From an uncultured Bacteroidales bacterium (GTDB taxonomy: Bacteria > Bacteroidota > Bacteroidia > Bacteroidales > Paludibacteraceae): DNA of 43,305 bases. The translations under genes were made by a program, and so were the position numbers. Below, one piece after another: positions 10,581 to 26,342 of the stretch. Positions within the stretch are counted from its first letter, which is position 1; the number at the start of each line of letters is the position of its first letter. The DNA lies in the NCBI GenBank assembly GCA_902798965.1, contig CADBYS010000034.1, forward strand, positions 1-43,305. The letters are read 5' to 3'. The notes beneath the pieces were generated by a model. That model was given only the letters and a program-made list of their open reading frames with translations. It had not been told where the DNA came from and made no database searches.

Positions 10581-10597
10581 GAACTTTCCTTTTTACG

Positions 10598-10758
10598 AAA
10601 ATAAACCTAAATCAACCCTGCCGGTGTCTGTTGTCCGTACCGGACTTTTGCCTTAGTCGTATAAGTCTCTCGCTTAAGTGTGACTTAACGATAGCCTTAT
10701 TCGCCTAAGCCACAACTCTTCGAGTAACAGACACCGTCAGCCATAAACATAAATAAAT
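10598..10758 (-). repeat. cloverleaf repeat element, copy C
   Basis: Read on the minus strand it has outer stem CGGTGTCTGTT / AACAGACACCG, hairpin 1 ACTC-gaa-GAGT, a central branched hairpin (ATAAG/CTTAT with apical GTTAAG/CTTAA), hairpin 3 GTCCG-gta-CGGAC, and the end motif CAGGGTTGATTTAGG. It matches copies A, B and D in architecture and in the end motifs but not in stem sequence. It fills the region just upstream of the S9 peptidase start. Confidence 0.75.
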
Positions 10759-10791
10759 TACAATGAATATATTACGATGAATTTATCCAAT

Positions 10792-10952
10792 GGGTTTATG
10801 TATGTTTATCGCTGCTTGTGGGTTTGCACCTCGCAGAGGTGAGGATTAGGTTGATAAGGTAGCCATCAAGCTCGCTTGAATGAGTACCTTAGCAAGCTAA
10901 GACTCACGTGCGTTGCACAGCAAACACACAAGCAGGGTTTATGTATGTTTAT
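10792..10952 (+). repeat. cloverleaf repeat element, copy A
   Basis: Bounded by two identical 18-bp direct repeats GGGTTTATGTATGTTTAT (10792-10809 and 10935-10952). Inside is an outer stem GCTTGTGGGTTTGC (10814-10827) / GCAAACACACAAGC (10920-10933), hairpin 1 ACCTC-gca-GAGGT, a central hairpin (TAAGGTA/TACCTTA with apical TCAAG/CTTGA) and hairpin 3 GTGC-gtt-GCAC. It ends 16 bp from the recG stop codon and is back to back with copy C. Confidence 0.8.
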
Positions 10953-10967
10953 TTTCCTAAATATCCA

Positions 10968-13052
10968 TTACGATATCTCGCGGTACTCGACCACAGCACT
11001 CTTGAACTTAGCGAGGTTGTCGCGATAAACCTGCGTGTAGGCAGTTGACAACTCAGGGTCATCGTCCAACACACTATTCGCCGCTTCGCGGGCAATCTGC
11101 AGCAACTGCCCATCCGTCGCCAGGTTGGCGATCTTGAAGTCCAGCGCCATACCCGACTGCATCGTGCCATCCAGGTCGCCGGGGCCTCGAAGCTCCAAGT
11201 CGGCTTCGGCGATACGGAAACCGTCGTTCGTGGCAGTCATAATCTCCATCCGCTTGCGCGTGTCGGCACTCATCTGCGGCGGGGTGAGCAACACACAGTA
11301 ACTCTGGTCGGCGCCGCGCCCTACTCTGCCGCGCAACTGGTGCAACTGGCTGAGTCCGAAGCGCTGGGCATCCTCCACGATCATCACCGAGGCGTTGGGC
11401 ACATTCACGCCCACCTCAATCACCGTCGTGGCAACCAGTATCTGCGTCTCGCCGCTCACGAAGCGCTGCATGTGTGCCTCTTTGTCCGCAGCTTTCATCT
11501 TACCGTGCACCATCGATATGCGGTAGTTCGGGAAGGTCTGCACCAAGGTGTTGTAGCCATTCTCCAAGTCAGCCAAGTCCAGCTCCTCGTTCTCCTGAAT
11601 CAGCGGATAAACCACATACACCTGCCGCCCCATATCCACCTGCTTGGTGATAAACTCGTTGATCGATTTGCGGCGGAGATTCGAGTAGTGGTAGGTCTGT
11701 ATGGGTTTGCGTCCGGGCGGCAACTCGTCAATCACCGACACCTGCAAGTCGCCATATACGGTCATCGCCAGCGTGCGTGGGATAGGCGTAGCGGTCATCA
11801 CCAACACGTGCGGCGGACGAATGTTCTTTGACCATAGTTTGGCTCGTTGCGCCACGCCGAAGCGGTGCTGCTCATCTACTATCACCAAACCCACATTCGC
11901 AAACTGCACCGTATCCTCTATTAACGCGTGCGTACCTATTAATAGGTCTATCTCCCCGCGCTCGAGTGCCGGCAACAGTTCGGCACGTTGTTTCTTGGTG
12001 GTACTGCCTGTCAACAGCTCGACGCGCACATCGGAACCTTTGAGGAATTTTTGCAGAGTAGCCAGGTGCTGATTCGCCAGGATCTCCGTAGGTGCCATGA
12101 TACAGGCTTGGTAGCCGTTGTCGATCACTAGGAGCGCTACCATCAGCGCCACGAGCGTCTTACCCGAACCCACATCGCCTTGCAGCAGACGGTTCATCTG
12201 TTTGCCGGACTTCATGTCGGCATGTATCTCCTTGATCACGCGTTTCTGCGCGTTCGTCAGCGGGAAAGGCAGCAGGTTCTTGTAGAAATAGTTGAAGTGC
12301 CGCCCAACGACCGACATCACAAAGCCGTCGGTCTTCTGCCGGCGCGCCGAGGCACGACCGAGGATCGACAGCTGGTTGTAGAACAGCTCCTCGAACTTCA
12401 GGCGCTCGCGGGCTTTCTGCATGCTGCGAGTGTCGCGCGGGAAGTGGATCTGCTGCATCGCCTCGGTGCGGCTCATCAGGTGGTAGCGCTGCAGTATATC
12501 CGCCTGAAGGGTCTCGGGCAATCCGCGCTCCACATCGGGCATCAAGCCCGCCATGATCACGCGCAGCGCCTTGCTGTTCAGCCCGGCGTTTTTCATCCGC
12601 TCGGTGGTGTTGTAGTACGGCTCCAGCCCGCTGACCATCTGCGGCGTGACCTTGTCCATCGGCGTGAGTTCGGGATGAACGAAGTTGTACGTGCGGTTGA
12701 AGCGCGAAGGCTTGCCAAACAGCAGATACGGCACTCCGGTCTGCAGCTTGAGGTACTGTATGCCCTTGAACCAGACGAGCTCGATCTGCGACTGCCCGTC
12801 CGAGAACATTGCCGACATCCGTTGCGCCTTGCCTATACCCATGGCGTGGTACTCCAGGATCTCGCCTTTGATCTGCACGTACGTATCTTCGTCCTCTATC
12901 TCATGGATATAATAGAACCGCGAGCGGTCGATATACTTGTACGGATACACCTCCAGGAGCTCGGCGGCAGTATCTACGCCCAGCTCCTTACGCAGAATGT
13001 CAGCCCTACGCGAGCCGACATTCTTACAATATGTTATTTCTTTGTCTAACAT
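10968..13052 (-). CDS. recG: ATP-dependent DNA helicase RecG
   Basis: Branch-migrating helicase that remodels stalled replication forks and Holliday junctions in the cytoplasm. From the start MLDKEITYCK (694 residues) it shows an N-terminal wedge/OB-fold region (VQIKGEILEYHAMGIG), Walker A GDVGSGKT at 292-299, the DExH box DEQH at 393-396, TATPIPRTLAMT, and the C-terminal motifs VIEVGVNVPNA and QLRGRVGRG. The frame is open upstream to an ATG at 13130 that would add 26 residues (MSPCDIERN...); the added part does not resemble the usual RecG N-terminus, so I prefer 13052. The gene starts about 100 bp downstream of the tonB-like gene on the same strand and may be cotranscribed with it. Confidence 0.95.
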   Translation of the reverse strand: MLDKEITYCKNVGSRRADILRKELGVDTAAELLEVYPYKYIDRSRFYYIHEIEDEDTYVQIKGEILEYHAMGIGKAQRMSAMFSDGQSQIELVWFKGIQYLKLQTGVPYLLFGKPSRFNRTYNFVHPELTPMDKVTPQMVSGLEPYYNTTERMKNAGLNSKALRVIMAGLMPDVERGLPETLQADILQRYHLMSRTEAMQQIHFPRDTRSMQKARERLKFEELFYNQLSILGRASARRQKTDGFVMSVVGRHFNYFYKNLLPFPLTNAQKRVIKEIHADMKSGKQMNRLLQGDVGSGKTLVALMVALLVIDNGYQACIMAPTEILANQHLATLQKFLKGSDVRVELLTGSTTKKQRAELLPALERGEIDLLIGTHALIEDTVQFANVGLVIVDEQHRFGVAQRAKLWSKNIRPPHVLVMTATPIPRTLAMTVYGDLQVSVIDELPPGRKPIQTYHYSNLRRKSINEFITKQVDMGRQVYVVYPLIQENEELDLADLENGYNTLVQTFPNYRISMVHGKMKAADKEAHMQRFVSGETQILVATTVIEVGVNVPNASVMIVEDAQRFGLSQLHQLRGRVGRGADQSYCVLLTPPQMSADTRKRMEIMTATNDGFRIAEADLELRGPGDLDGTMQSGMALDFKIANLATDGQLLQIAREAANSVLDDDPELSTAYTQVYRDNLAKFKSAVVEYREIS

Positions 13053-13155
13053 ACGGGGTCCCCAAAGAAATAGTATATTTCGCGTGGGGAAAGCGGAAAC
13101 AATGTTGCGCTCTATGTCGCAGGGCGACATCTGTGAGCAACATTTGTTGAACGCG

Positions 13156-13836
13156 TTATTGTAACTTGAAGCTAACAGGTACGGTGTACTTTACACGTAC
13201 CGGTTTGCCACGTTGCTTACCGGGTTTCCACTTAGGCATCGACTTGATCACGCGTACGGCCTCCTTGTCCAGCGATGCGTCACCGCCCGAACGAACAACC
13301 TCTACGTCAACAATCGAACCGTCCTTGTTCACCGTGAACTGGCAAACAACACGACCCTGGATACCGTTCTCCTGAGCAATAACCGGATATTTCACGTTCT
13401 CGCTCAAGAACTTGAACAGCTGTTGTGTTCCGCCGGGGAACTCAGGCATCGTTTCTACCACCATGAACACAACCTCTTCGTCCTCCTCCTCAACCGGAGC
13501 CTCGACAGGAGCGGCAATCACTACCTCTACCTCCTTGTCATCCTCGGTCTGGATGTCGATATCCTCTACTTCCTTCTCATCCTCAACGACGTTCAGTACT
13601 TCTACCTCTTGTACTTGTGGGGGTGGGGGCGGAGGCGTAACATCCTGTTGTGTTTGTTGAATCTCGACTTCTTCCTCGAAGCTCATGTCCAAATCTGCCA
13701 CTTCATACTTGGTGACCTCTTTCTCAGTCCACTCAAGAGCGACATAACAGATGCTCAGCACGAAAGCCAAACCTATAAGGATATAGGTAAACTTCTTGTC
13801 TTCCAAGCTGGCGTTTGGTGATTTTTTCAGTTGCAT
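13156..13836 (-). CDS. TonB-family energy transducer
   Basis: Inner-membrane protein that passes proton-motive-force energy from ExbB/ExbD to outer-membrane TonB-dependent transporters. The 226 residues show a short cytoplasmic basic start, one membrane segment at 17-34 (FTYILIGLAFVLSICYVA), an acidic periplasmic spacer with a proline run at 68-73, and a TonB C-terminal domain at about 140-226 (GRVVCQFTVNKDGSIVDVEVVRSGG, KWKPGKQRGKPV). The PEFPGG segment just before the domain is typical of Bacteroidota TonB proteins. ExbB/ExbD genes are not adjacent. A consensus promoter lies 108-139 bp upstream. Confidence 0.93.
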   Translation of the reverse strand: MQLKKSPNASLEDKKFTYILIGLAFVLSICYVALEWTEKEVTKYEVADLDMSFEEEVEIQQTQQDVTPPPPPPQVQEVEVLNVVEDEKEVEDIDIQTEDDKEVEVVIAAPVEAPVEEEDEEVVFMVVETMPEFPGGTQQLFKFLSENVKYPVIAQENGIQGRVVCQFTVNKDGSIVDVEVVRSGGDASLDKEAVRVIKSMPKWKPGKQRGKPVRVKYTVPVSFKLQ

Positions 13837-13943
13837 ATAGATTTAATTTTATAATGTTTGCTTGTGTACTTATTGTAGCGCGCATCACGTGTATTCCGCG
13901 GGGCGTCACGCTACAAAATTTCGCGTTTTTACGAAATTCGCTG

Positions 13944-13975
13944 CAAATATACTATTTTTTTTTGACATTTGCAAA
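13944..13975 (-). promoter_or_regulatory. promoter for the TonB-family gene
   Basis: Minus strand TTTG (13975-13972), 20-nt spacer, TATATTTG (13951-13944). The leader would be about 100 nt. Confidence 0.6.
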
Positions 13976-14223
13976 TATTTCCGCATTTTTTTCTAAAAAT
14001 CGTTTGTTTTTTTTCATTTTTCAACCAAATCTTGCATCTTTGCCCCTTTCGTGTGCAAATTTTTCAGAAAATTCTCTGCCCAAATTTCCTGTACGGATTC
14101 CACGGATCTTACGGATTACGATGATTATTGGTTAGTCAAAAATTACCAACATATCCCAAAACACAATGAATTTTTGTTAATTTTGGGGCATTGGACTTAT
14201 AAAAGCCTATGTACTTGAGCAAC
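13976..14223. other. AT-rich intergenic stretch
   Basis: No gene seen. It includes T-rich tracts and a short 9-nt-period repeat at 14093-14118 (ACGGATTCC, ACGGATCTT, ACGGATT) like those near 7970 and inside the S9 gene. Confidence 0.5.
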
Positions 14224-14385
14224 GGGTTTATTTAGGTTTATCGCTGCTTGTAGGTTTGCGCATCGCAGAGGTGAGGATTAGAGCGATAAGGTGATCGTCA
14301 AATTTATTTGAAAGAGCACCTTAGCGAACTAAGACTCACGTGCGCAGCACGGCAAACCGGCAGGCAGGGTTTATCTTGGTTTTGG
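14224..14385 (+). repeat. cloverleaf repeat element, copy B
   Basis: Same orientation and layout as copy A: end motif GGGTTTATTTAGGTTTAT, outer stem GCTTGTAGGTTTGC / GCAAACCGGCAGGC (including G-U type pairs), central hairpin (TAAGGTG/CACCTTA with apical TCAAA/TTTGA), hairpin 3 GTGC-gca-GCAC, end CAGGGTTTATCTTGG. Relative to copy A, GGTA/TACC has become GGTG/CACC and TCAAG/CTTGA has become TCAAA/TTTGA, so pairing is kept. Hairpin 1 is partly disrupted. Confidence 0.78.
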
Positions 14386-14417
14386 TTAATTTTTGACCTA
14401 ACAAGTGCATTGTAAAT

Positions 14418-14447
14418 CTTTCGACTTTTACTATCGACTTTCGACTA
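14418..14447. repeat. 7-nt-period repeat, intergenic
   Basis: CTTTCGA, CTTTTAC, TATCGA, CTTTCGA, CTAT; same units as inside the S9 peptidase gene at 10252-10283, with one unit shortened to 6 nt. Confidence 0.6.
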
Positions 14448-14566
14448 TATAATTATTGTACGCGCACGAATACGCGCGGAAATTTCAAAAAACAGCCTCT
14501 CTGACATGCAAAAAAACGCCATTTTTGCTACAAACTTGCATTTTTCTGAAAATTTTTGCAAAAATT

Positions 14567-14598
14567 CTTGCATTATTCATATTTTTTTTGTAATTTTG
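14567..14598 (+). promoter_or_regulatory. promoter in front of a candidate structured RNA
   Basis: CTTG (14567-14570), 20-nt spacer, TAATTTTG (14591-14598). No credible protein gene starts downstream before the next promoter at 14963, so the transcript, starting near 14605, is probably noncoding or a long leader. Confidence 0.5.
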
Positions 14599-14604
14599 CC
14601 GCGA

Positions 14605-14880
14605 GATTGATAAATAGGGGTGTTGTATGGGAAAACATTAGGGTTAAATTTCTTTGATCTTGCATTGGCTATTGGCTGTCAGCCCTTGCTGTGCTGTATG
14701 GCCAATAGCATGCAAGTCATTCAATTGTGCGGGTGTTATTTCCCGCCTCTCCCCCACTCTTCCGTACAACGCAAGTGACGCTTGTTGGCAGTTTTGGCAT
14801 CATTGTCGAAACATGTCTTTATGGCTATGGCAGCCCGTTGTTTCAGCCTGCGCCTCGAGGCAATAAACCGAGGCAAAAGT
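14605..14880 (+). ncRNA. candidate structured noncoding RNA (unrecognised)
   Basis: The predicted transcript folds as a three-way junction. The closing helix is GTTGTATGGGA (14622-14632) / TTCCGTACAAC (14760-14770), 11 pairs with two G-U. Hairpin 2 is a 16-pair stem at 14659-14676 / 14701-14716 (CTTGCAT..GCTATTGGC with GCCAATAGCATGCAAG, 2-nt bulge). Hairpin 3 is GCGGG/CCCGC at 14729-14746. Near the 3' end are hairpins GCCTCG/CGAGGC (14852-14874) and GTCTC/GAGAC (14879-14894). It lacks the hallmarks I know for tmRNA, RNase P RNA and SRP RNA; a 6S-type RNA cannot be excluded. Boundaries are estimates. The overlapping 70-residue frame has unnatural composition and is probably not coding. Confidence 0.35.
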
Positions 14881-14881
14881 C
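14852..14881 (+). repeat. CCGAGGC hairpin repeat, copy 1
   Basis: Hairpin GCCTCG / CGAGGC followed by AAAAG; nearly the same 26 bases recur at 16659-16684. Each copy lies 100-190 bp upstream of a TA-type gene that has a strong ribosome-binding site. Confidence 0.7.
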
Positions 14882-14962
14882 TCAAAAACGAGACAGCGAA
14901 CATTGAAATAATGTACTTCTATTGAGAAAAAGTGATTTTTTTTCACGAAAAAGTGGAAAAAA

Positions 14963-14994
14963 CTTGCATATATCAAAAAAAAGTTGTATCTTTG
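14963..14994 (+). promoter_or_regulatory. promoter of the HTH antitoxin-like gene
   Basis: CTTG (14963-14966), 20-nt spacer, TATCTTTG (14987-14994). Confidence 0.6.
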
Positions 14995-15037
14995 CAGCAA
15001 ATCCTATGAACTATCCATATAAGAAAGGAGGCAACCT

Positions 15038-15568
15038 ATGAAAAGTATGTTAACTGACGGTGAAGCCGTATATCAAAAGGAGATGCGCGAGACAGAGTTT
15101 CGCGGCGAGAAGTTCCTTTATGAGCATCACAATGTTCGAGATTTGGATACAAACATTGAATACACGACAACCGAAATTGACGAAGGAAACGTACAACGTG
15201 TTTACGACCAGTACCGCGAGCGGCACGATATACCTTCGCCGAAAGAGTTGACGGAGATGCGCGAAAAGTACGGCTTGTCGGCCATTAAGATGGCACAAGT
15301 GCTGGGACTTGGCGTGAACCAATACACCAAGTACGAACAAGGCGAGATGCCGAGCGAATCAATCGGCAAAATGTTACGTTCGGTACAAACGCCCGCAGTA
15401 TTCATGGGATATCTGGAAGGCGCTAAACATCAGTTCAGCGAGGAGGAATATGCGAAGATTTGCGCAAAGGTGCAGAAATCTTTCTTGAAGATCATCAAGT
15501 CCAAGCCTGACTTGTCATGGTTCTGGGAGTTCTTCTCACCGCGTTTTGTTGGCAGAGTGGCGCTGTAG
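15038..15568 (+). CDS. HTH (Xre/MqsA-like) antitoxin-type regulator, partner missing
   Basis: A 176-residue DNA-binding protein. The N-terminal 60 residues resemble the MqsA-like antitoxins of Bacteroidota that are paired with or fused to Panacea/SocA domains, but the zinc-ribbon cysteines are absent. Residues about 68-115 are a helix-turn-helix (ELTEMREKYGLSAIKMAQVLGLGVNQYTKYEQGEMPSES, read in two parts: LTEMREKYGLSAIKMAQ and VLGLGVNQYTKYE). The C-terminus is short and has no Panacea domain. No toxin gene adjoins it: a terminator follows at once. It has a perfect AAAGGAGG 8 bp before the ATG, unusual for this phylum. Likely autoregulates its own promoter. Antitoxin assignment is by resemblance only. 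Confidence 0.65.
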   Translation: MKSMLTDGEAVYQKEMRETEFRGEKFLYEHHNVRDLDTNIEYTTTEIDEGNVQRVYDQYRERHDIPSPKELTEMREKYGLSAIKMAQVLGLGVNQYTKYEQGEMPSESIGKMLRSVQTPAVFMGYLEGAKHQFSEEEYAKICAKVQKSFLKIIKSKPDLSWFWEFFSPRFVGRVAL

Positions 15569-15600
15569 AGCAGCACTCTTACAACAGTTTTTCTCAATAG

Positions 15601-15633
15601 GAGCAACGGTTTATCCGTTGCTCTTATTTGTTT
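15601..15633 (+). terminator. intrinsic terminator
   Basis: Perfect 9-bp inverted repeat GAGCAACGG / CCGTTGCTC (15601-15609, 15615-15623) followed by a T-rich tract, 32 bp after the antitoxin-like gene. Confidence 0.85.
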
Positions 15634-15961
15634 GTAGAAGTACATGAAGTTTCAAGGTAAGAGGAGTTGATTACCATGTCCATCGGATTGTTGGTAATTG
15701 TCTTTAATTGTTGACAGATTAAGTCCATTATAACCGCTCATATTAGCGGGCATCAAAGGAACGCCACATAACCGCAACGGGAGCGGAAAGGGAGCCCAAC
15801 GGGGTAAAACCGTATCCTACTGAAGGTATAATATATTATATATATTATCGCGTGAAGTTGAAATGAATAACCATGTAATAAGAGGGAAAGTGCAAAGCAA
15901 AAAATGAACAAATAGCGACAATAGCGTCAAGAGCGACAACGAAATATATAACGACATAAGT
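15634..15961. other. intergenic leader of the ORF6N gene
   Basis: No gene larger than a 13-codon frame at 15863. It holds a TA-rich dyad at 15826-15850 and, just before the ORF6N start, a leader (15911-15960, GTCAAGAGCGACAACGAAAT) that recurs in similar form before the P-loop gene at 18085-18150. The 15-nt string AAATGAACAAATAG also occurs at 16633-16646. Confidence 0.55.
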
Positions 15962-16633
15962 ATGGCGAAAAAGGTTGAAATAAAGAAGCCTGTATTTATT
16001 ACAAGTACATCTATCCAACTATTGTCTGTACAGCAACAGATATTTCTGATTCGTGGCAAGCAGGTAATGGTGGATAGAGATTTGGCAGCTTTATATGGGG
16101 TAGAAACGCGCATCTTGAAACAGGCAGTCAAGCGCAACATGGAACGCTTCCCTGAGGAGTTTATGTTTCAACTTGACAATCAGGAGTTTGAAAAATGGAG
16201 ATCACAATTTGTGATGTCCAATTCCGACAAAATGGGTCTGCGCCATGCTCCATACGTGTTTACCGAGCAAGGTGTTGCCATGTTGTCAGCCGTATTGAAA
16301 AGCCCTACAGCTATTTCTGTGAGCATAGCCATTATGAATGCCTTCGTGGAAGCGCGACGGATATTGGCTCAAAGCGACAAACATGAGATGGCTATCGGCG
16401 AGTTACAATTGCGGATGAAGATGCTTGAGGATGCGTTGGATAACAACATGGGTGCAGTAGATAACCTCAACGCTGAAATGAAGGAGGAACTCAAAAAGAT
16501 CTATAAAGTTCTTGGCGTGTTGACCGAAAGATATAGGAAAGACGAAGACCGCAAGCCCATCGGTTACGAAGCCATTGATGCCGAACGGAAAAAGGAAGCC
16601 ATGGAGGAGAAAGGGGCAAAAGGGTCAAGGTAA
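15962..16633 (+). CDS. ORF6N domain-containing protein
   Basis: A 223-residue protein with an ORF6N domain at about 23-112 (IRGKQVMVDRDLAALYGVETR, read as IRGKQVMVDRDLAALYG then VETRILKQAVKRN; FPEEFMFQL; RHAPYVFTEQGVAMLS). The family occurs in phages and in Bacteroidota chromosomal islands and is thought to bind DNA. Residues 140-190 look like a coiled coil, and the C-terminus is highly charged (EAMEEKGAKGSR). Flanked by TA-type genes and probably part of transferred DNA. Exact role unknown. Confidence 0.88.
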   Translation: MAKKVEIKKPVFITSTSIQLLSVQQQIFLIRGKQVMVDRDLAALYGVETRILKQAVKRNMERFPEEFMFQLDNQEFEKWRSQFVMSNSDKMGLRHAPYVFTEQGVAMLSAVLKSPTAISVSIAIMNAFVEARRILAQSDKHEMAIGELQLRMKMLEDALDNNMGAVDNLNAEMKEELKKIYKVLGVLTERYRKDEDRKPIGYEAIDAERKKEAMEEKGAKGSR

Positions 16634-16658
16634 AAATGAACAAATAGATTAGCCGCGT

Positions 16659-16685
16659 CTCGAGGCTATAAACCGAGGCAAAAGG
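16659..16685 (+). repeat. CCGAGGC hairpin repeat, copy 2
   Basis: CTCGAGGCTATAAACCGAGG followed by CAAAAG; differs from the copy at 14854-14879 at one position in the shared core. It lies about 100 bp upstream of the second promoter/ribosome-binding-site leader. Confidence 0.7.
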
Positions 16686-16756
16686 ATCTTTGATGTATTG
16701 TGTACTTATAGAAATGAGAGAAATTCGCAGGCAAAATGCATTTTTTTGCTGATAAA

Positions 16757-16788
16757 TTTGCATATTTCCCAGAAAAGTTGTACCTTTG
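16757..16788 (+). promoter_or_regulatory. promoter of the YafQ-type TA operon
   Basis: TTTG (16757-16760), 20-nt spacer, TACCTTTG (16781-16788). It decides the antitoxin start, since the longer open frame from 16736 would begin upstream of the promoter. Confidence 0.7.
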
Positions 16789-16828
16789 CGACGTCAAAGG
16801 TAACGGACAACAAAGAAAGGAGGCAGAT

Positions 16829-17032
16829 ATGCAAGCTGCAGTAGCACAAAATTATGATGTAGTACAAGTTCAGGTACCGCACTTGGAGTTGAAAAGATTC
16901 AAAACCATCGTCAAGGCTTTAGGATGCATGGTGGAACCCCTAAGTCCTATAGAACGCTCTCTTCGTGAAGCAGAGCAAGGGAAGATTATTCACTATGATT
17001 CGTTGGATGATTTAATTAAGGAGATAGGCTGA
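16829..17032 (+). CDS. antitoxin of a YafQ-type TA module
   Basis: Small protein of 67 residues (MQAAVAQNYDVVQVQVP...) that probably neutralises the toxin encoded directly downstream and represses the shared promoter. Start chosen at 16829 because AAAGGAGG sits 7 bp upstream and the promoter lies at 16757-16788. The N-terminal half is beta-like (VVQVQVPHLELKRF) and the C-terminal half an acidic helix (SLREAEQGKIIHYDSLDDLI). The stop codon shares one base with the toxin start (TGATG), so translation is probably coupled. The C-terminal 27 residues resemble the mini-ORF at 17324. Sequence family not firmly recognised. Confidence 0.75.
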   Translation: MQAAVAQNYDVVQVQVPHLELKRFKTIVKALGCMVEPLSPIERSLREAEQGKIIHYDSLDDLIKEIG

Positions 17033-17331
17033 TGTATAGTTTGAATATTACTCCACAATTTAAACGCGATGCGAACAAATGTAAGCGACAGGGCAAAAGA
17101 ATGGAGCTTCTTTGGGAGGCAGCCCGTATTTTAATAAACGAAGGCACTCTTCCAGATTCTTATAAACCACACATGCTACACGATGAGTTTGCCGGTTGTT
17201 GGGAGTGCCATATTGAGGATGATTGGTTGCTGATCTGGAAGCAAAACGACTTTAAGTTGACATTACTTTTTACAAATACAGGTTCGCACGAGTATTTATT
17301 TAATAAAAAGAAAGGAGCACAACATGAGTGA
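17032..17331 (+). CDS. YafQ-family mRNA endonuclease toxin
   Basis: A 99-residue RelE/YafQ-superfamily toxin, a ribosome-dependent mRNA nuclease that halts translation when not bound by antitoxin. The catalytic pattern known for YafQ is present: His47 (or His50), His60 and Asp64 in ECHIEDDWLLIW, His86 in TGSHEYLF and Phe90. The length fits the family. The 3' end overlaps by 8 nt the start of a 35-codon ORF that has its own ribosome-binding site. Cytoplasmic. Confidence 0.88.
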   Translation: MYSLNITPQFKRDANKCKRQGKRMELLWEAARILINEGTLPDSYKPHMLHDEFAGCWECHIEDDWLLIWKQNDFKLTLLFTNTGSHEYLFNKKKGAQHE

Positions 17332-17431
17332 TGAATTAAGAAAAGCATTAGAGATCTCACTTGAGCAAGAAGCTCGCGGAGAAGTTACCCATTACGAATC
17401 AGTAGAAGAGTTAATGAAAGCATTAGGGTAA
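17324..17431 (+). CDS. 35-residue mini-antitoxin-like peptide downstream of the toxin
   Basis: The peptide begins MSDELRKALEISLEQEARGE and ends VTHYESVEELMKALG. It has AAAGGAG 5 bp before the ATG and overlaps the toxin end by 8 nt. It aligns without gaps over 27 residues with the C-terminus of the upstream antitoxin: SL, G, HY, S, L, K and G are shared (SLREAEQGKIIHYDSLDDLI against SLEQEARGEVTHYESVEELM). In TA modules the antitoxin C-terminus is usually the toxin-binding part, so this looks like a free-standing toxin-binding tail without a DNA-binding half. It could instead be the remnant of a second antitoxin. A terminator follows 26 bp later. Confidence 0.65.
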   Translation: MSDELRKALEISLEQEARGEVTHYESVEELMKALG

Positions 17432-17456
17432 ACAATCCGAAATTATCATTTCTATA

Positions 17457-17488
17457 AGCAACAATTCCGAAAGGGGTTGTTGCTTTTG
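17457..17488 (+). terminator. intrinsic terminator of the YafQ-type TA operon
   Basis: AGCAACAATTCC (17457-17468), GAAA loop, GGGGTTGTTGCT (17473-17484), then TTTTG. Eight perfect outer pairs. Confidence 0.8.
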
Positions 17489-18172: not shown

Positions 18173-18670
18173 ATGGCAAAAGACAATAATATACATATGA
18201 CACAGAAAACAATCATAGCAAATTATGGTACCGAGAATGTGGGGAAAACAACGTCGGTTAAGTTGGTGTACCATAAACTCCACCAACTTATCGCAGATGA
18301 AAACTGCCGTGACCTTCATTCGCCGGAAGATAACAACGGAGACCTTTGTGCTATCATTACTATCAATAACAAAAAAGTAGGTATCTCCAGTTTGGGCGAT
18401 AATATAGAGCAATATGCTGAATGGTTAGACGAATTAGTCGGAGAAGAATGTGATATTATCCTTGTCGCCTGTCATGATTATGATGATACGACTAAAAAGA
18501 TATATAGTCTCCAAGCAAAAGGCTATCGCATTTTGTGGACAGAAAACGCTCGTATTTACGAAGAGATAGATAAAAACATCCATAACGCTCCGAAGGCATT
18601 ACTATCTCGCTTCAACGAGCAATGGGCGGAGGAGATAGCTAACTTGATTGATAATTGGTGTTATGCATAA
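18173..18670 (+). CDS. small P-loop NTPase of unknown role
   Basis: A 165-residue protein with a Walker A motif GTENVGKT at 19-26 followed by TSV, near the N-terminus. A strand with small residues follows (KVGISSLGD, about 68-76) and a hydrophobic strand (CDIILVACHDYDD, about 93-105) that could serve as a Walker B-like segment, then WTENARIYEE. No further domain. An internal start at Met9 (MTQKTIIANY) is possible. It lies 39 bp upstream of a PIN-like nuclease gene on the same strand, so the two may act as a pair. I do not recognise the family. Confidence 0.6.
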   Translation: MAKDNNIHMTQKTIIANYGTENVGKTTSVKLVYHKLHQLIADENCRDLHSPEDNNGDLCAIITINNKKVGISSLGDNIEQYAEWLDELVGEECDIILVACHDYDDTTKKIYSLQAKGYRILWTENARIYEEIDKNIHNAPKALLSRFNEQWAEEIANLIDNWCYA

Positions 18671-18709
18671 GTATACTGATTAAATGGCTTAAAATAAAAA
18701 TTGAGCAAA

Positions 18710-19669
18710 ATGCAATATGTAATTTATGATACGAATGAGTATGTGAGAATGGTTGGTGATTCAAACAAGCCATTCAACCAAATTGAAGAAAGCGTGGCGC
18801 GCTTGCATAACTGTGAGCAACGCTTATCTTTGGTGCCCATTCTCAATACTACAGTTGCCTTTGAGCTTATTAAACATCTTGCAAGTAATGACCCCAATGA
18901 ATTGAATTTGTATATAAGAGCTTGTTATGCGTTAGCTATTCATTGTCGTCCTTCATTCCCAATTATGACAAAGAATCCCATCGCATCATATATAGAGAAT
19001 GAATTTCAAAAGCAGTTGGTAAGTATTGACTATTTGATTAAGTTCTTGCAAGAGATGATCAATAACCCAACACCACAAACGATTGCAGCAAATTCGAAAT
19101 TGATTGAGCGAGTTGACAATTATTTATATAATGTAGGGATAAACTACTTAGCGGATTTGCAACGGCTGCGTCCTCAATTTCAGACTCAAGATGATCAACG
19201 GAAATGGATGCTCCAAATAGTCAATACTAAGGATTATTTACAATATCGAGCAACATCATTCCTTGAAAGCCTGGTTGTTGCATGTCGTGAAGTTGACTCT
19301 AGGAAAGTTATTACAGCCAATACATTAAGAAAGTTCGTCCAAGAACATCCTACTTACATAGAAATATGGCGTGAATTTGACAAAAAGTACATTGAAGGAG
19401 GCTATAATCTTCAGAAACTTAAAACGGCAAACACCTTTTGGGATGCAGAGATATGTTATCATCTCGGAACAACGGTAAATAATCACAAGGTATATATTGT
19501 TACTGAAGAGAATATGTTACATCGAGCAGCAAAGAAAGCTCATCAAAGCAACTGGATGTTAAAGATTAATCAAGTCCATACATTCAACAAGATACGTTTC
19601 TATTTTCGGAACTTCTTGGCATTGATACAAAAACCATGGTGGACGATTATACGTACACAAAAGAACTAA
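18710..19669 (+). CDS. PIN-like domain protein (putative ribonuclease)
   Basis: A 319-residue protein with the spaced acidic residues of a PIN nuclease: Asp7 in VIYDTNEYV, Glu52 in AFELIKHL, Asp245 in FWDAEICYHLG and Glu266 in YIVTEENMLHRAAKKA. The middle, about 60-240, is a helical insertion longer than in VapC-type toxins (about 130 residues in all). The start is the ATG at 18710; a TTG at 18701 would add three residues. It probably cleaves RNA or another nucleic acid. The partner may be the upstream P-loop protein, and no small antitoxin gene is adjacent. Confidence 0.65.
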   Translation: MQYVIYDTNEYVRMVGDSNKPFNQIEESVARLHNCEQRLSLVPILNTTVAFELIKHLASNDPNELNLYIRACYALAIHCRPSFPIMTKNPIASYIENEFQKQLVSIDYLIKFLQEMINNPTPQTIAANSKLIERVDNYLYNVGINYLADLQRLRPQFQTQDDQRKWMLQIVNTKDYLQYRATSFLESLVVACREVDSRKVITANTLRKFVQEHPTYIEIWREFDKKYIEGGYNLQKLKTANTFWDAEICYHLGTTVNNHKVYIVTEENMLHRAAKKAHQSNWMLKINQVHTFNKIRFYFRNFLALIQKPWWTIIRTQKN

Positions 19670-19760
19670 CCCGTTGATGCCGGATGCAGGAAACGATATT
19701 TAGAAAATTTGAGGATTAGAACGGAATATGGAACAAGCAAAATAGGAGCCATTAAAGTAT

Positions 19761-20597
19761 ATGAAAGATGAAATAGAAAATAGAGCAGCAGTAGCACAAG
19801 GGATATTGAATGAGCAGTACCCTCGCTATTTGTATAAGTTCAGGACACTTGAGTCGGCGGTTAGAGATCTGAGGATTCCGTCCATCTATATGAATTCTAT
19901 TGTGAACTTTAATGACCCATATGAAGGACACTTTGTTTTAGATAGTAAAAACACAACAGTAGAATGGGAAACATTTTTACAAAATATAGGGTATAAAAGT
20001 AGTAATATAAAGAAAAAGGCAGTATATTATGCTGCTAATCCCGACAAGGCGCAGAAGTTATTAGAACCAATTATTCGAGACAATTTAGAAAAAAGTGGCG
20101 TCTTCTGTTTTAGTAAAGGGTACGACAAAATTCCGATGTGGGCATACTACGCAGAAGATCATAAAGGTATTTGTATCGAGTATGATCCATTGCAAGATGA
20201 ACAGTTATGCGATAGTTTGTTGCCGATGAATTATTCGAAAGATTATGTGCGCTTTAACTACATAAATGAGCCTTTCGGAGTAACTCGGTCAATTACACAA
20301 AAAGCTGATTGCTGGGCGGGGGAAGATGAGTTTAGGCTTATAAAGGTCGGAGAAGCACGCAAGCTTTTGACTATTAATCCACAAGCAATTACCTCTGTCA
20401 TTCTTGGTTGCAAGTTTGCAGATAGTGTAACAAAAGATCCAAAACGAAAGGAACTCACAAAGGAATTGTTGCAACTTTTGCTTAATCCCAAATATAGTCA
20501 TGTTATTTTAGAAGTATGTCAACAAAATAAAAATGATTACTTACTACAAAAGCATGCTGTAGATATTTCATTTTTACAAGCGTTAGTAACAATTTAA
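19761..20597 (+). CDS. DUF2971 domain-containing protein
   Basis: A 278-residue cytoplasmic protein with the DUF2971 pattern: YLYKFRTLESA near 24, NFNDPYEG at 49-56, VFCFSKGYDKIPMWAYYAED and HKGICIEYD at about 114-142, and WAGEDEFRLIK near 190. Biochemical function is unknown. The family is common in genomic islands, often near phage-defence genes. There are 91 bp to the gene before it and 34 bp to the next, so its place in an operon is unclear. Confidence 0.85.
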   Translation: MKDEIENRAAVAQGILNEQYPRYLYKFRTLESAVRDLRIPSIYMNSIVNFNDPYEGHFVLDSKNTTVEWETFLQNIGYKSSNIKKKAVYYAANPDKAQKLLEPIIRDNLEKSGVFCFSKGYDKIPMWAYYAEDHKGICIEYDPLQDEQLCDSLLPMNYSKDYVRFNYINEPFGVTRSITQKADCWAGEDEFRLIKVGEARKLLTINPQAITSVILGCKFADSVTKDPKRKELTKELLQLLLNPKYSHVILEVCQQNKNDYLLQKHAVDISFLQALVTI

Positions 20598-20631
20598 ATA
20601 TTGAATATTAACATATAAAAAATCATAAACA

Positions 20632-23600
20632 ATGAAAAACTTTAAAGTTAAATGGCTATTACTGAGTTTTATTCTTAGTATTGCAAGCATTAACACCGCG
20701 TGGGCGGAAACTATTCCGGCAAACACAATCATCTATGTGGATGTTGCTAATCTCAATAATGGCGATTGGGATGCATCCGGAACGGCTTACTATATGTCTG
20801 TGACGGCCTCAGAAAACTCAAGCCACACGACAACAGCAACCAACACAACAGGTGCGGGAAGTTATGCGCCTAAAAAAGATACATGGATTACGCTTGCACA
20901 AGTTGCTGGCAATTTATATGCGGGAAAGGTGACTTCGCAGTCCACAACCGGCAAAGTATCATTTTGGACAAAAAATGAAAGTTCGTATGATAACTGTTGG
21001 GAAGTAAATGCTGCTTTAGCGCAAAGTTATGTTTCTTCGAAGCGCAAGTTTACGATTTCTTCTGATCACACAAATCACGGAGACCGAAGGACATCTTGTT
21101 TTGGAACGACTACAAGTTCTATCGATTTGTTTACAGGAGGACAGAAACTTTATTTGAGAGTAGGTACTAATTGGAAAACAAAAGACGGTAGTGGTAATAG
21201 TCCTCGCTTTGCTGCATGTTTCTTAGGACAAACTGGACAAACATGGGCTAAATTCACAAAAGTAACAGGAGATTATTATGTTGTCACTGTTCCTACGTCG
21301 GGAGCGGGAGAATGGCCATATGTTATTGTCTGTCGTATGAATGGTGGCAATACTACAGATTCTTGGAGTAATGTATATAATCAAACAGATGACTTGGCTC
21401 CAAGTTCAGATGGTCAGGGATTCAATAACTGTGTTTGGATTGCTGATGATGCCTGGAGTAATAGTTCCAGTTGGACGAAATATGCACCGAGCCCTGCTGT
21501 TTGGAAAACAGATGATCATGATTACACTACGAATAAGTTCGTAGATGGATCTGTTGGAATCTCCTTAAATGCAAATACTACGTATTATTTCAAGATAGCA
21601 GATGGTGTAGAAGGAGGATGGTGGGGATGCTCGGATAATGATGATTACAGAAAATCGTTCGTGGGACAATCAGAAAAGCATACATTATATTCTGGAGGTA
21701 TAGATGCTCAAAAAGTAATTATCCTTAAAACAGCCGGAGCCGGAACATATACTTTCCATTGGAATAGTTCTACGCACCAAGTATCAGTAACTTATCCAAC
21801 TGTTACGCACCCCAGTAGCGATTATATCTATTTTAAGAATAATCGCAAATGGCCTAATGTAATGGGGCATCTATTTAATGGAACTCCGGCAAGTACTGCA
21901 TGGCATGCTTTGCCTGTTTTGGATTCCGTAAATTTTGATGGAACATACTACCATTATGCAGCAGCTGGTGGCAGCACAAATATTCTAGTAGCTAAAGAAA
22001 CTACAGATGCCTGGGATGACAAGACTGCCGATTTGACGGTAAGCAAAGGAAAGGGCAAATGGTATGATGTTGTAAACAAAAGTACGAAATCTAGTGAGGA
22101 TGCTACCAAATGGAAAACGTTTGATGCTACATTAACGCTACTTACGACTCAAGGCGAGACGAGAAATCCTTCTCCGACCAGTATTACTGTAACATATGGT
22201 GCAGGTACTAATATCAATACTGATTTTATTTCTACAAGCCCGCAACATACAAACTATTCATTCGGCGGCTACTATACTGAGCCAGGAGGCTCCGGCACAC
22301 AAGTAATAACCGCATCAGAGGTGATTCCTACTAATTTGGAAGGTTACACTTCATCCGGAAAATGGATTAAGACCGGTGCTTCTGTTTCTGCAAATCTTTA
22401 TGCAAAATGGACGCAGAATGTTACTTTGAATAAGCATAATGATGAAAGTAATGGCAGCGTGACGATGACATACAATTCCAACTCACATCCGGCGATTACA
22501 ACCCCGACGAGAACAGGTTACACCTTTACCGGTTGGTACGCTGCAGCAGATGGAAATGCTTTGGTCATTGCGACAGACGGTACGTTGCAGAATAGAACAT
22601 CCTATACAGATGCAAGTGGCAAATGGACGAACTCTGGTTCTGCTCCGACTTTACATGCTCATTGGACAGAAGACACGCACACTGTGTCGGTTGCAGCGGG
22701 AAGTCATGGATCAATAAGCGGATCTGTTTCCTCTGTTACGGGTGTAGGTATTGCAACGGCTTCATCAGAAATCACTGCAGTTCGTGATAATGGCTACGAT
22801 TTTGTGAATTGGACATTGCCTACAGGCGTAACGGCCGCTGCTGGATATTCTGCAACAAGCAACCCTATTAGCATTAATGCGACAGCGGATGGCGTAACTA
22901 TTACTGCTAATTTTACCGCACACACTTATAGTATCACGCTTGATAAGGGTGACCATGGAGCAGCTGATGGATCGGCTACGGTAGTATTTAATACATCTAC
23001 ACTAGCAAGTAGTTCTCTTGTATCGGCTAATCCGGGTTATCAACACGAAGGATATTACGATGGTAATACAAAAGTGCTTAATGTTGATGGTACGTTTGCT
23101 GGAACTAATGTATCAGGTTATATTACAAGCGGCAAGTGGAGCAAGTATGATGCCGACGCTACGTTAACAGCTAAATTTTCACCGGTAGCGCTTACATTCG
23201 AAGGCGATGTAGTAGGTCACGCAACAGAATGGAACGAGGAAGATAACTGGTCACCGGCTTGCGTGCCGACGATTGAGCATGATGTGGTTATTGACAAGCC
23301 AGTAGTTGTAAATATTACTGATGCAAAGGCCAAGAGCGTGAAGATTTACAATAAAGAGAGTACCACACACACAGGTAAGTTGACTATTGGTGCGGGTAAG
23401 GCACTGGTTGTAGCAGAGGATATCAAGAAGACTGAGGATGGTAGCACAAAGATTGCAACAACTGCTGATGTGCTGCATATCGAAGCGGGAGATGGTTTAA
23501 CCGGCAATGGCGCTCTTGTTTGGGGCACAAGCGGAACTCCCGGCGATGCACAGGTTGATTTCTATACGGCGGCTTTAGGTGTAAAAGGAAATACTACCTC

Positions 23601-24753
23601 TAAAAACCAATATATAGGAACACCGTTTAGCAATGACCAGCAAGTGCTGTATCAGTTCTATTATTCGTGGGTGTATAAGATTGAGTATTCAGATGATGGC
23701 GAACCTTACTGGACACCTCTGGCAAGCGATGCTGCCATGAATGAATTTGAAGGATACGATCTGATTTCCGCTTACAATGCAGCAACTACATATCAGATGG
23801 AAGGAACATTGGTAAGCAACGGCAATGTTACTCTCACTACAGGAACTACACCTGCTCTATATTATAATGGTTCGTCCAAGACGGAGAATGTTCTTGCCAA
23901 CTCATGGGTTGCGCCAATTAAGATAAACACCATGGATGCTACCAATAATTTCAGTAACGTTGAGGGCACAATATATATCTTTAATATGGGTAGCGAAACA
24001 GATGGAAGTGGAGGAACAGGCGGAGGAGCCGGTAACTATTCCACTTATACAATCGGATCTGCAGGTGAAACAGTTATTCCATCCATGCAGTCATTCTCAG
24101 TATATACAACAGGTTCAAGTCCAAGTCTGACTTTGAACTATACCAATTCGGTGAAGACTCCTGTGGCTAACGGTACGATGAACTCTGCCAACAGAGCCCC
24201 TGCTCGTAATCTTGCTGACGAAATGGATCTACTTAAATTGAATGTCGCGAGCGAAAATGGCTGGGGAGATGAGTTGAAGTTCTATATCCACGAGGATTTC
24301 ACAAACGAATTTGAGAATGGTTGGGATGGACATAAGATGTTCGGTTATCCTGAAGCTCCGCAATTATACGCGGTAAGCAATGATGGAGAGTTGGCCGTAG
24401 CGTGCGTACCTACAGCAGAGAACAATGTGATTGCTTTCACACCGGGTAGTGAGGATAATGAATATACATTCTCATTCACGTACGATGGCGATGAGGAGTA
24501 TTACCTCAAAGACACTAAGCTGAACATTGAGACGCTCATCAACACCGAGGCTACGTACACCTTTACCTCCGAGGCTCAGGATAGCGAAATGCGGTTCATC
24601 ATCATCAAGCATGCGCCGGCAGTGGCCACGGACGTGGAGACATCAGATATCAAAAATCAGAAATCAGATGTTCAGAAGATATTGCACAACGGGCAGCTGT
24701 ATATCATCCGCGATGGAGGAATATACTCAACTGATGGACAAATGGTGAAATGA
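20632..24753 (+). CDS. secreted Listeria-Bacteroides (InlB_B) repeat protein with C-terminal sorting tail
   Basis: A 1373-residue exported protein. Signal peptide 1-25 (KWLLLSFILSIASINTAWA). Residues about 30-480 are beta-rich with several WSNV/WSNS-type aromatic stretches of unknown family. At about 500-860 are four InlB_B-type repeats (NYSFGGYYTEPGG, YTFTGWYAAADG, YDFVNWTLPTG, YQHEGYYDGN). At about 870 the segment NWSPACVPTIEHDVVID resembles a module common in type IX secreted proteins. The tail KILHNGQLYIIRDGGIYSTD matches the tail of the 3270-residue protein and is probably the type IX sorting signal. A heptad repeat (24643-24675) lies just before the tail. Likely surface attached, with a binding or adhesion role inferred. 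Confidence 0.85.
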   Translation: MKNFKVKWLLLSFILSIASINTAWAETIPANTIIYVDVANLNNGDWDASGTAYYMSVTASENSSHTTTATNTTGAGSYAPKKDTWITLAQVAGNLYAGKVTSQSTTGKVSFWTKNESSYDNCWEVNAALAQSYVSSKRKFTISSDHTNHGDRRTSCFGTTTSSIDLFTGGQKLYLRVGTNWKTKDGSGNSPRFAACFLGQTGQTWAKFTKVTGDYYVVTVPTSGAGEWPYVIVCRMNGGNTTDSWSNVYNQTDDLAPSSDGQGFNNCVWIADDAWSNSSSWTKYAPSPAVWKTDDHDYTTNKFVDGSVGISLNANTTYYFKIADGVEGGWWGCSDNDDYRKSFVGQSEKHTLYSGGIDAQKVIILKTAGAGTYTFHWNSSTHQVSVTYPTVTHPSSDYIYFKNNRKWPNVMGHLFNGTPASTAWHALPVLDSVNFDGTYYHYAAAGGSTNILVAKETTDAWDDKTADLTVSKGKGKWYDVVNKSTKSSEDATKWKTFDATLTLLTTQGETRNPSPTSITVTYGAGTNINTDFISTSPQHTNYSFGGYYTEPGGSGTQVITASEVIPTNLEGYTSSGKWIKTGASVSANLYAKWTQNVTLNKHNDESNGSVTMTYNSNSHPAITTPTRTGYTFTGWYAAADGNALVIATDGTLQNRTSYTDASGKWTNSGSAPTLHAHWTEDTHTVSVAAGSHGSISGSVSSVTGVGIATASSEITAVRDNGYDFVNWTLPTGVTAAAGYSATSNPISINATADGVTITANFTAHTYSITLDKGDHGAADGSATVVFNTSTLASSSLVSANPGYQHEGYYDGNTKVLNVDGTFAGTNVSGYITSGKWSKYDADATLTAKFSPVALTFEGDVVGHATEWNEEDNWSPACVPTIEHDVVIDKPVVVNITDAKAKSVKIYNKESTTHTGKLTIGAGKALVVAEDIKKTEDGSTKIATTADVLHIEAGDGLTGNGALVWGTSGTPGDAQVDFYTAALGVKGNTTSKNQYIGTPFSNDQQVLYQFYYSWVYKIEYSDDGEPYWTPLASDAAMNEFEGYDLISAYNAATTYQMEGTLVSNGNVTLTTGTTPALYYNGSSKTENVLANSWVAPIKINTMDATNNFSNVEGTIYIFNMGSETDGSGGTGGGAGNYSTYTIGSAGETVIPSMQSFSVYTTGSSPSLTLNYTNSVKTPVANGTMNSANRAPARNLADEMDLLKLNVASENGWGDELKFYIHEDFTNEFENGWDGHKMFGYPEAPQLYAVSNDGELAVACVPTAENNVIAFTPGSEDNEYTFSFTYDGDEEYYLKDTKLNIETLINTEATYTFTSEAQDSEMRFIIIKHAPAVATDVETSDIKNQKSDVQKILHNGQLYIIRDGGIYSTDGQMVK
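24643..24675. repeat. 7-nt-period repeat inside the secreted protein gene
   Basis: TCAGATA, TCAAAAA, TCAGAAA, TCAGATG, TTCAG encoding TSDIKNQKSDVQK, between the last domain and the sorting tail. Confidence 0.75.
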
Positions 24754-24779
24754 AAGGTGAAAGGTGAAAAGTGAAAGGC
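24744..24779. repeat. GTGAAAR repeat spanning the stop codon
   Basis: Repeats of GTGAAAG/GTGAAAA around the TGA at 24751-24753; similar to the array at 17749-17780. Confidence 0.7.
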
Positions 24780-24800
24780 AAAAGACTTAATCTGATAAAT

Positions 24801-25193
24801 ATGAAAGATATGAAAAATAGAGTTATTGTTATGATCATGGCGGCAGTGTTCGCACTGCCTGCCATGGCGGGCTGGATCAAGCAAGAGCAACAACCAAACG
24901 CCACAGAGCAGCAGAGCGCATTCCAGTCCACAAGTGCCATGCAAGGTTCGGGTAGTCCTTATACCTCTACGCCCGCAGAACTGAACGACGAAGGCAAAGC
25001 GACGTACGAAGAGAAAACCGAGCCGGTGATCGTGGTAAGCGGCAGAAGGAAAGTTAAGCCGGTTACGCCTGATAAGGATCCTATGCCCGTGGGTGATGCG
25101 GTGTTACCGATGATGCTGATGGCTGCTGCCGCAGCCGGGGCGATGGCTTGGCGGAGACGCAAAGCTGCTGTCGATGCGGAATTAGGAAAATAA
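24801..25193 (+). CDS. small exported protein with PVGDA motif, C-terminal membrane helix and Arg tail
   Basis: A 130-residue protein: signal peptide 1-23 (MKNRVIVMIMAAVFALPAMA), then AFQSTSAMQGSGSPYTS at 40-56, a charged linker, PVGDA at 96-100, a hydrophobic helix 101-117 (VLPMMLMAAAAAGAMAW) and RRRK at 118-121. This order (short motif, helix, basic tail) is that of C-terminal sorting signals processed by a transpeptidase-like enzyme, but no such enzyme is encoded nearby. I have the impression that short proteins of this plan follow type IX secreted proteins in related Bacteroidales; I cannot confirm it here. The start is at 24801, or 24810; a GTG at 24771 would precede the signal peptide with an unlikely extension. 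Confidence 0.7.
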   Translation: MKDMKNRVIVMIMAAVFALPAMAGWIKQEQQPNATEQQSAFQSTSAMQGSGSPYTSTPAELNDEGKATYEEKTEPVIVVSGRRKVKPVTPDKDPMPVGDAVLPMMLMAAAAAGAMAWRRRKAAVDAELGK

Positions 25194-25343
25194 ACATATA
25201 TCAACCCTGCTGATGGGTTTGAAGCACATACGTGCTTGTGATGGTTTGTATGGTCAGTTTGCTTTCAAATACATTTGAGCAACAGCCCATACAAATCATC
25301 ATTCATTCTCCAACCCATCAGCAACGATAAACCAAAATAAACC
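25187..25343 (-). repeat. cloverleaf repeat element, copy D
   Basis: Read on the minus strand: GGTTTATCGTTGCTGATGGG starting the outer stem GCTGATGGGTT / AACCCATCAGC, a long central hairpin (GATGATTTGTATGG / CCATACAAACCATC with inner TTGC/GCAA and apical TCAAA/TTTGA), hairpin 3 AGCAC-gtat-GTGCT and end motif CAGGGTTGATATATG. Hairpin 1 is absent. The element touches the stop codon of the gene before it and precedes the HigBA-type operon. Its right end is part of the duplicated TA leader. Confidence 0.75.
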
Positions 25344-25460
25344 TTATCATTGAAGCCCGATTTCGTCAAAAATTACCAAAAATTGCCCCAAAATACATTT
25401 TTTTGAGGAAAAATTTGCAAATGTCAGAAATTTTTTGTACCTTTGCAGTCGCAAAGGTTT
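25323..25460 (+). repeat. duplicated TA leader, copy 1
   Basis: From GATAAACCAAAATAAACC through TTGAAGCCCGATTTCGTC to the promoter TTTG-20-TACCTTTG and GCAGTCGCAAAGG. The same leader, with few differences, recurs at 26403-26550 and 27163-27318, each time in front of a TA-type operon. Confidence 0.85.
25414..25445 (+). promoter_or_regulatory. promoter of the HigBA-type operon
   Basis: TTTG (25414-25417), 20-nt spacer, TACCTTTG (25438-25445). Confidence 0.7.
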
Positions 25461-26282: not shown

Positions 26283-26342
26283 AAAACGATCGCTTTTAGA
26301 TTGTATGCGTCTGAGCTAAAGGATAAAAAAGTTCTATTATAT

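Follow-up and report, generated by a model that had tools for sequence, protein, structure and literature searches.

What are the four copies of a ~160-bp repeat that lie in a contig of an uncultured Bacteroidales bacterium of the family Paludibacteraceae (CADBYS010000034.1), and what put them there? An earlier note on this DNA described them as cloverleaf-like elements with covarying stems, and left the choice between a nonautonomous mobile element, of the repetitive extragenic palindrome (REP) or miniature inverted-repeat transposable element (MITE) type, and a structured RNA. Here the whole contig stretch of 43,305 nt is called the window, and its coordinates are those of the forward strand. 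We are nearly certain that the elements exist, that they are structured and that they are tied to one clade group of genes of the GxxExxY family (TIGR04256), which code for a PD-(D/E)XK nuclease. The repeats probably form the ends of a small mobile element that has this nuclease as its only gene and is moved by it.

The four copies were recovered at the places given in the earlier note with a covariance model, R1, whose only input was 18 full copies from this genome, the structure being that of RNAalifold on the same alignment with pairs added by hand. They are copy A at 10597-10760 (minus strand, 145 bits), copy B at 10792-10956 (plus strand, 186 bits), copy C at 14224-14388 (plus strand, 169 bits) and copy D at 25186-25344 (minus strand, 100 bits). 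The further copies that the note expected were found as well: the family, ~163 bp long, occupies 42 non-overlapping places in the genome, 39 of them full-length. This is a hand count from 71 R1 rows, 29 of which were dropped as opposite-strand echoes or as a few weak or short matches, some of these at further places. With copy B as query, blastn gave 33 matches in the 2.85-Mb genome. By hand reading, nine contig ends of the draft assembly fall at or inside a copy, as expected for a true repeat, and in the alignment the copies form two main subfamilies and a third, to which D belongs.

The association with GxxExxY was seen in this genome (G000), where a gene of the family lies between a minus and a plus element on contigs C2 and C13, and in genome G018, where one adjoins an element. 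Three element-associated proteins score ~105 bits against TIGR04256 and PF13366, for which the cut-offs are 35 and 22. The genome has four genes of the family, none within the window. The element-linked genes of the genus fall into three clades, all with the ECKA motif. Genes of clade I have R1-type elements at their sides; those beside clades II and III are divergent, with what by eye is the same architecture. For an independent test, GTDB species genomes were scanned with alignment A4, and the best 80 of 119 related loci were used. These span Paludibacteraceae, Prevotellaceae, Muribaculaceae and other Bacteroidales, and include Prevotella sp. P3-122 and Xylanibacter brevis ATCC 19188, a cultured strain carrying the system. 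An R1 element (E up to 0.012) was present within 400 bp of 75 of the 80 genes, and on both sides in 41; the five misses were L305, L326, L333, L336 and L341. A second model, R2, which was built from 103 copies of 52 of the test loci and is thus partly circular, placed an element beside 77 of the 80 genes, and on both sides in 59, with a downstream limit of 700 bp. R2 also matched all eight clade II and III loci (L154-L161) at E ≤ 0.01, the weakest being L157 (0.0087, ~520 bp away). Five ELKA-type genes of the same genus had no R1 or R2 match, and in 619,956 control bases (20 arbitrary regions and 55 other GxxExxY loci) there were no R1 matches at E ≤ 1 and no R2 matches at E ≤ 0.1.

In its complete form, the element consists of a left-end (LE) cloverleaf, the nuclease gene and an inverted right-end (RE) cloverleaf, with imperfect inverted terminal repeats of ~20 bp outside; the LE/RE naming and the terminal-repeat length are our reading of the alignments. 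The arrangement of the nearest ends at the 59 both-sided loci (R2) was minus-gene-plus in 44, minus-gene-minus in eight, plus-gene-plus in five and plus-gene-minus in two. The complete element has a median length of 882 bp and a range of 763-1228 bp among 43 hand-listed loci, which leaves no room for a second sizeable gene.

The protein itself has the marks of a PD-(D/E)XK nuclease. D83, E93 and K95 are invariant in 31 sequences and correspond to what reads as the D...ExK active site of the PD-(D/E)XK fold. An AlphaFold2 model had a mean predicted local distance difference test score (pLDDT) of 94, and a Foldseek search with it gave four matches below E 0.001, all of them chains of SSO0001, which we take to be Cas4, with template-modelling (TM) scores by query of 0.44-0.52. 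LHK and lambda exonucleases followed at 0.0055-0.0062, just after the unrelated-looking 5cw3 at 0.0049. Judged from the predicted structure, the protein thus seems to belong to the Cas4/lambda-exonuclease branch of the fold. A GxxExxY call at the place expected for cas4, beside a reverse transcriptase, in the available part of one report (PMC8934634) fits a Cas4-like fold. There was no sequence relative at E ≤ 0.1 in the PDB, and none of the three proteins tried had a relative in PADLOC or PHROGs. The ratio of nonsynonymous to synonymous substitution rates (dN/dS) was 0.05-0.14 in the three of nine pairs with a computable dS, and in these measurable pairs the gene is under purifying selection.

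Gene and element diverge together. The Mantel correlation between nuclease and RE was 0.545 (n = 35; 0 of 2000 permutations as high), with host kinship not controlled; 41 loci were entered, and those dropped had a stop in the fixed translated stretch. Element similarity, in a comparison that mixed LE and RE, was 0.632 for the same clade in other genomes (46 pairs) and 0.594 for another clade in other genomes (82 pairs), and in genomes with two nuclease clades the similarity of the element sets was 0.587 (5 pairs) versus 0.573 when shuffled. Among 37 genus genomes tallied by hand, an ECKA gene was found in 11 of the 21 with R1 elements and in 1 of the 16 without (Fisher p 0.004); the latter, G014, has a weak R2 match only, beside the gene.

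Each unit runs from a left terminal repeat resembling GTTTATNTANGTTTAT through an outer stem, hairpin 1, a long bulged hairpin 2 and hairpin 3 to a right terminal repeat, followed by TTTTC. As single-stranded DNA, A, B, C and D fold better than shuffled sequences (z −10.4, −8.9, −6.9 and −7.4, respectively; 0 of 200 shuffles as good for each). The outer stem and central hairpin that had been proposed are present in the minimum-energy folds of all four; hairpin 1, which had been called clear in A and C, appears in A and B and not in C or D. Of the 44 pairs, 26 vary on both sides in a MAFFT alignment of 18 copies, in which 89% of cells are paired, covariation being matched by 0 of 500 shuffles on any of five measures, so that the covarying stems of the earlier description are upheld. 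Sliding the partner by 1-3 columns lowers pairing to 28-48%. Hairpin 3 is paired in only 60% of cells in this alignment, because the two subfamilies are out of register. Watson-Crick pairs fill 88% of 4173 cells in a set of 97 unique full-length copies. In the 103 copies from 52 named loci, all 44 pairs vary on both sides with 91.8% of cells paired (37-45% when slid); in this model-fitted alignment four of the five measures exceed shuffles, but the changed-pair count alone does not (78 of 500 as high). Model-fitted alignments bias counts toward the structure, and the safer figures are those of the MAFFT alignment and a count of G·T against A·C limited to pairs with Watson-Crick neighbours.

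This last count was 88:13 in alignment A3 and 71:12 in alignment A5, and the excess holds in each end separately (31:6 for LE/upstream, 21:5 for RE/downstream) and in the MAFFT alignment (23:6). The plus, outward strand of the element folds more stably than the minus strand in all four window copies. The preponderance of G·T over A·C in the stems indicates that one strand folds, which argues for folding of a single strand at each end, as single-stranded DNA or RNA, and against a double-stranded cruciform. A reading in which the ends are cruciforms cut by a junction-resolving nuclease and spread by recombination only would account for the inverted symmetry, the fold resembling a four-way junction and the PD-(D/E)XK nuclease; since both strands would then fold alike, yet the bias is about six to one, we regard it as very unlikely.

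RNA would explain the strand bias, and the greater stability of the outward strand's fold, as well as single-stranded DNA does. The cloverleaf could therefore be a structured RNA, with outward transcription from the spacer or the gene, that serves GxxExxY as a guide, controls it or is its processing substrate, for instance in an RNA-guided or RNA-templated element. In agreement with this, 27 of the 60 right ends with an open reading frame (ORF) within 150 bp, among 97 copies examined, face its start codon; however, the other 33 face a stop codon, so that by this crude ORF calling there is no consistent leader position. The same count also did away with a fixed orientation towards neighbouring genes that had seemed striking at the earliest loci. 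No element in the window and 18 loci matched Rfam at the gathering score, the sole match being a tRNA elsewhere in L298. An RNA function is worth keeping in mind, yet we think it unlikely.

That the elements move is very likely. In a flank comparison, 93 of 147 flanks had no homologue among the others and 19 locus pairs had both flanks in common, which by hand grouping gives ~67 distinct contexts for the 80 loci, with no judgement possible on a side where a contig end truncates the locus. Fourteen gene-less doublets in three genomes (X. brevis and two further ones) have related inverted sequence at their two ends, in the pattern AACAAAAAC...GTTTTTGTT, and the sequence outside them is mostly dissimilar; X3_6k and X13_129k have the left flank in common. 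Genome G029 has ten near-identical solo units at separate places, several with common flanking modules, and G001 has a decaying insertion of which RE and the 3' part of the nuclease gene are left. At the dehydratase-fcl junction, G001 carries a solo RE and G000 no element. At rpoA-rplQ, G035 carries a doublet at each of two junctions, and 12 related loci lack an element-sized insert, with spacers that are not alignable. The rpoA-rplQ spacers of the genus (L168-L179) change fast and are often low-complexity filler such as ATTAAACATTAAACATT.

Several observations weigh against a nuclease-driven mobile element with two inverted ends. Three of the 80 loci (L305, L326 and L341) have no end even by R2 and 18 have one only, and 15 of the 59 both-sided loci depart from the minus-gene-plus arrangement, some of the deviants being nested copies; both X. 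brevis genes are atypical, with nearest ends plus-gene-minus (L336) and minus-gene-minus (L342). The same-clade excess in element similarity rests on clade I (0.647, 33 pairs), clades II and III giving 0.59-0.60 in a weak test. The X. brevis doublets X1_259k, X13_107k and X24 are alike past the right end, and together with the extra flanking module in G029 this leaves the exact moving unit unsettled. By eye, no target-site duplication was recognised in the 14 doublets, and comparisons at related loci gave no clean empty site, because intergenic spacers diverge too fast. No transposition was observed. No lone nuclease of the PD-(D/E)XK fold is, to our knowledge, known to act as a transposase, and movement would thus require a host partner not yet seen. 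Furthermore, 10 of the 21 genus genomes with R1 matches, such as G002 with 23 copies, have no ECKA-type GxxExxY gene over threshold; the gene may have been lost later or fall in assembly gaps at repeats. This persistence of elements in genomes with no detected gene of this type would also be expected if GxxExxY were a passenger or a host-side repair nuclease and another enzyme moved the elements. Nevertheless, the complete element has no space for another sizeable gene, nuclease and element co-diverge, an end adjoins 75 (R1) or 77 (R2) of the 80 genes, the active site is kept and selection is purifying where measurable, and a passenger role therefore seems improbable to us.

If the nuclease does move the element, the outward-reading strand of an end, once single-stranded, would fold into the cloverleaf; the nuclease may recognise this fold and cut it at the base or at the ends, after which a copy of the element would reach another intergenic site by repair or strand invasion. 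Doublets of LE and RE with no gene, such as A and B, and solo ends such as C and D would be nonautonomous derivatives, on which the nuclease would presumably act in trans, as with MITEs and REPINs.

The gene is absent from most copies, and the window holds such gene-less and reduced forms only. Copy B, of the LE type, and copy A, of the RE type, form a doublet at 10597-10956 that is read on the minus strand, with a 31-bp spacer; its inverted geometry is that of the GxxExxY-bearing elements and of other doublets, but the gene is absent. Copy C is a solo LE-type cloverleaf with a degenerate right terminal repeat, and copy D a solo cloverleaf of the third subtype, the right end of which overlaps the final 8 bases of the ORF at 24771-25193. 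Two truncated copies on the minus strand were absent from the earlier list: an internally deleted copy at 26335-26438 (R1 27 bits, and by alignment), which has left-flank sequence in common with D, and a left-end fragment at 27167-27198, found by blastn and alignment, with an end motif at 27182-27197. The end-motif scan placed the right and left terminal repeats of A at 10601-10616 and 10743-10758 (minus strand), the left and right ones of B at 10794-10809 and 10937-10952 (plus), the left one of C at 14226-14241 (plus), and the right and left ones of D at 25190-25205 and 25327-25342 (minus). With at most one mismatch, GTTTATNTANGTTTAT occurs nine times in the window versus 0.03 expected, always inside elements or truncated copies, which bears out the direct terminal repeats that had been described. 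Genome-wide, 28 of 29 exact matches to the motif sit at element ends, two of these at contig ends (hand reading), and a pre-existing target site is therefore unsupported as an origin of the terminal repeat. The remaining one (G000:C10:27036-27051) is a solo terminal repeat with a weak R1 match only, perhaps the remnant of a lost copy. Clusters of small ORFs that look toxin-antitoxin-like, recognised by eye from sequence, lie at 15038-17331 and 25565-27943, beside C, D and both truncated elements.

Elsewhere, series of copies on the same strand could have been taken for a gene-cassette array, a reading that was rejected since what lies between the copies resembles housekeeping genes (GDP-mannose dehydratase, Dus, rpoA/rplQ and superoxide dismutase, named without a database search). 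At L005-L008, four copies have similar sequence past the right end, and a gene end seems to have been duplicated along with the element. In X. brevis there are 27 copies, and of the 26 listed, 14 form seven head-to-head doublets, with at most 150 candidates scored. One survey gave zero matches in 24 genomes of other families with 47 candidates scored per genome, and an order-level survey gave zero in 196 of 198 genomes with 14 scored, both of which are weak zeros. A viral-contig scan and a phage search found no relative; plasmid records gave five distant GxxExxY matches.

The association may extend beyond the cloverleaf. GxxExxY is present in 73 of 148 sampled Bacteroidota genomes, and matching repeats occur in both 300-bp flanks of 24 of 46 GxxExxY genes of other Bacteroidota versus 6 of 177 control ORFs (Fisher p 2e-14, ignoring that some genomes contribute several genes), a count that left out L207 (wrong frame) and L199, L201 and L245 (short flank), although L199 has a strong repeat. 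The other 22 have no such flanking pair. These repeats differ in sequence, are often palindromic or tandem, and do not match R1 or R2; in several other GxxExxY genes the repeat starts at or a few bases from the stop codon. In Prevotella nigrescens (NZ_CP082843.1, L398 11690-12795), the gene lies among ~120-bp repeats starting 3 bases past the stop. That gene is near conjugation genes, and the PINSR repeat is known from the same species group. GxxExxY loci of other types (L197-L246) are often inside other repeats, with motifs such as ACGGATNNAACGGAT and CTTTGCGATCTTTGCG. The flank counts suggest a general association of GxxExxY with repeats, of which the cloverleaf system would be one branch. 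Because of this excess, and of the repeats that start near the stop codon, it is conceivable, if somewhat short of probable, that GxxExxY marks an unrecognised class of mobile element with a cognate repeat in each lineage. The cloverleaf would then be a well-conserved branch of this class, whose nonautonomous derivatives would include many of the intergenic repeats so far unexplained in Bacteroidota. Bacterial genomes hold many dispersed palindromic repeats of unknown source, and here one family is tied gene by gene to a nuclease family. Should the nuclease drive their spread, such DNA would be mobile with no transposase that can be recognised, Cas4-like nucleases might have evolved from this system or given rise to it, and TIGR04256, a small nuclease family whose function is unknown, would gain one that can be tested.

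How does the system compare with known ones? In the open-access literature searched, the cloverleaf element is undescribed, and the papers naming the GxxExxY family or its accession are, by title and opening of the abstract, not about repeats or mobility. Integron attC sites are served by the IntI integrase, and each unit is bounded by inverted core sites, R' and R''; the ends of one cloverleaf unit are direct repeats, unlike the inverted attC cores. The PINSR of Prevotella intermedia and P. nigrescens, an unexplained 188-bp intergenic repeat with 177 and 184 copies in two strains, is likewise a multi-copy repeat of similar size in Prevotella, but is reported to have no terminal inverted repeats (PMC4755523); the two families were compared by description only. 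Like MITEs, including BrickBuilt of Porphyromonas as outlined in the available text of PMC4596501, the elements include short, nonautonomous, intergenic, multi-copy forms with inverted ends, and the same kind of ends is found on gene-less doublets and on the gene-bearing form. In contrast to MITEs, that form carries a PD-(D/E)XK nuclease between its ends and not a recognised transposase, and the fold is elaborate and covarying; the 23-nt tandem core given for BrickBuilt in that text was not noticed in the cloverleaf elements, again by description only.

An ordinary REP/RAYT (REP-associated tyrosine transposase) or IS200/IS605-derived system would likewise show inverted doublets, single-strand folding and a cognate gene nearby. 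However, the gene between the hairpin ends is not the TnpA Y1 gene of IS200/IS605 but one of a different fold, and the Y1-type transposase that the earlier note proposed to look for is not the partner: of the six Y1_Tnp matches that the genome gave, two exceed the family cut-off, and none has an element in its ~3-kb locus. Such an origin is hardly credible. As for the earlier mobile-element reading, its multiple copies, MITE-like doublets and single folded strand stand, and its link to Y1/RAYT falls. A Y1_Tnp ORF at L031 643-1899 has a short internal repeated insertion (ISSHGTGSAKD), and its locus has 31 exact bases in common with the flank of element L012. The closest likeness is to REPINs, which according to PMC3116915 form inverted doublets and fold as single strands, with a partner gene that has its own units on either side and diverges together with them; all of these traits recur here in intergenic palindromic units, with inverted doublets outside genes. 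The differences lie in the unit, a ~163-bp cloverleaf with three hairpins as opposed to the 20-40 bp palindromes of REPs (PMC3733652, from the portion available), and in the partner, a PD-(D/E)XK Cas4-like nuclease as opposed to the Y1 (HUH) transposase of RAYTs. The comparison points to a kind of bacterial genome parasite outside the known classes, and the best reading is a nuclease-associated element, of the size of an insertion sequence and with MITE-like derivatives, that acts like REP/RAYT but with a Cas4-like nuclease.

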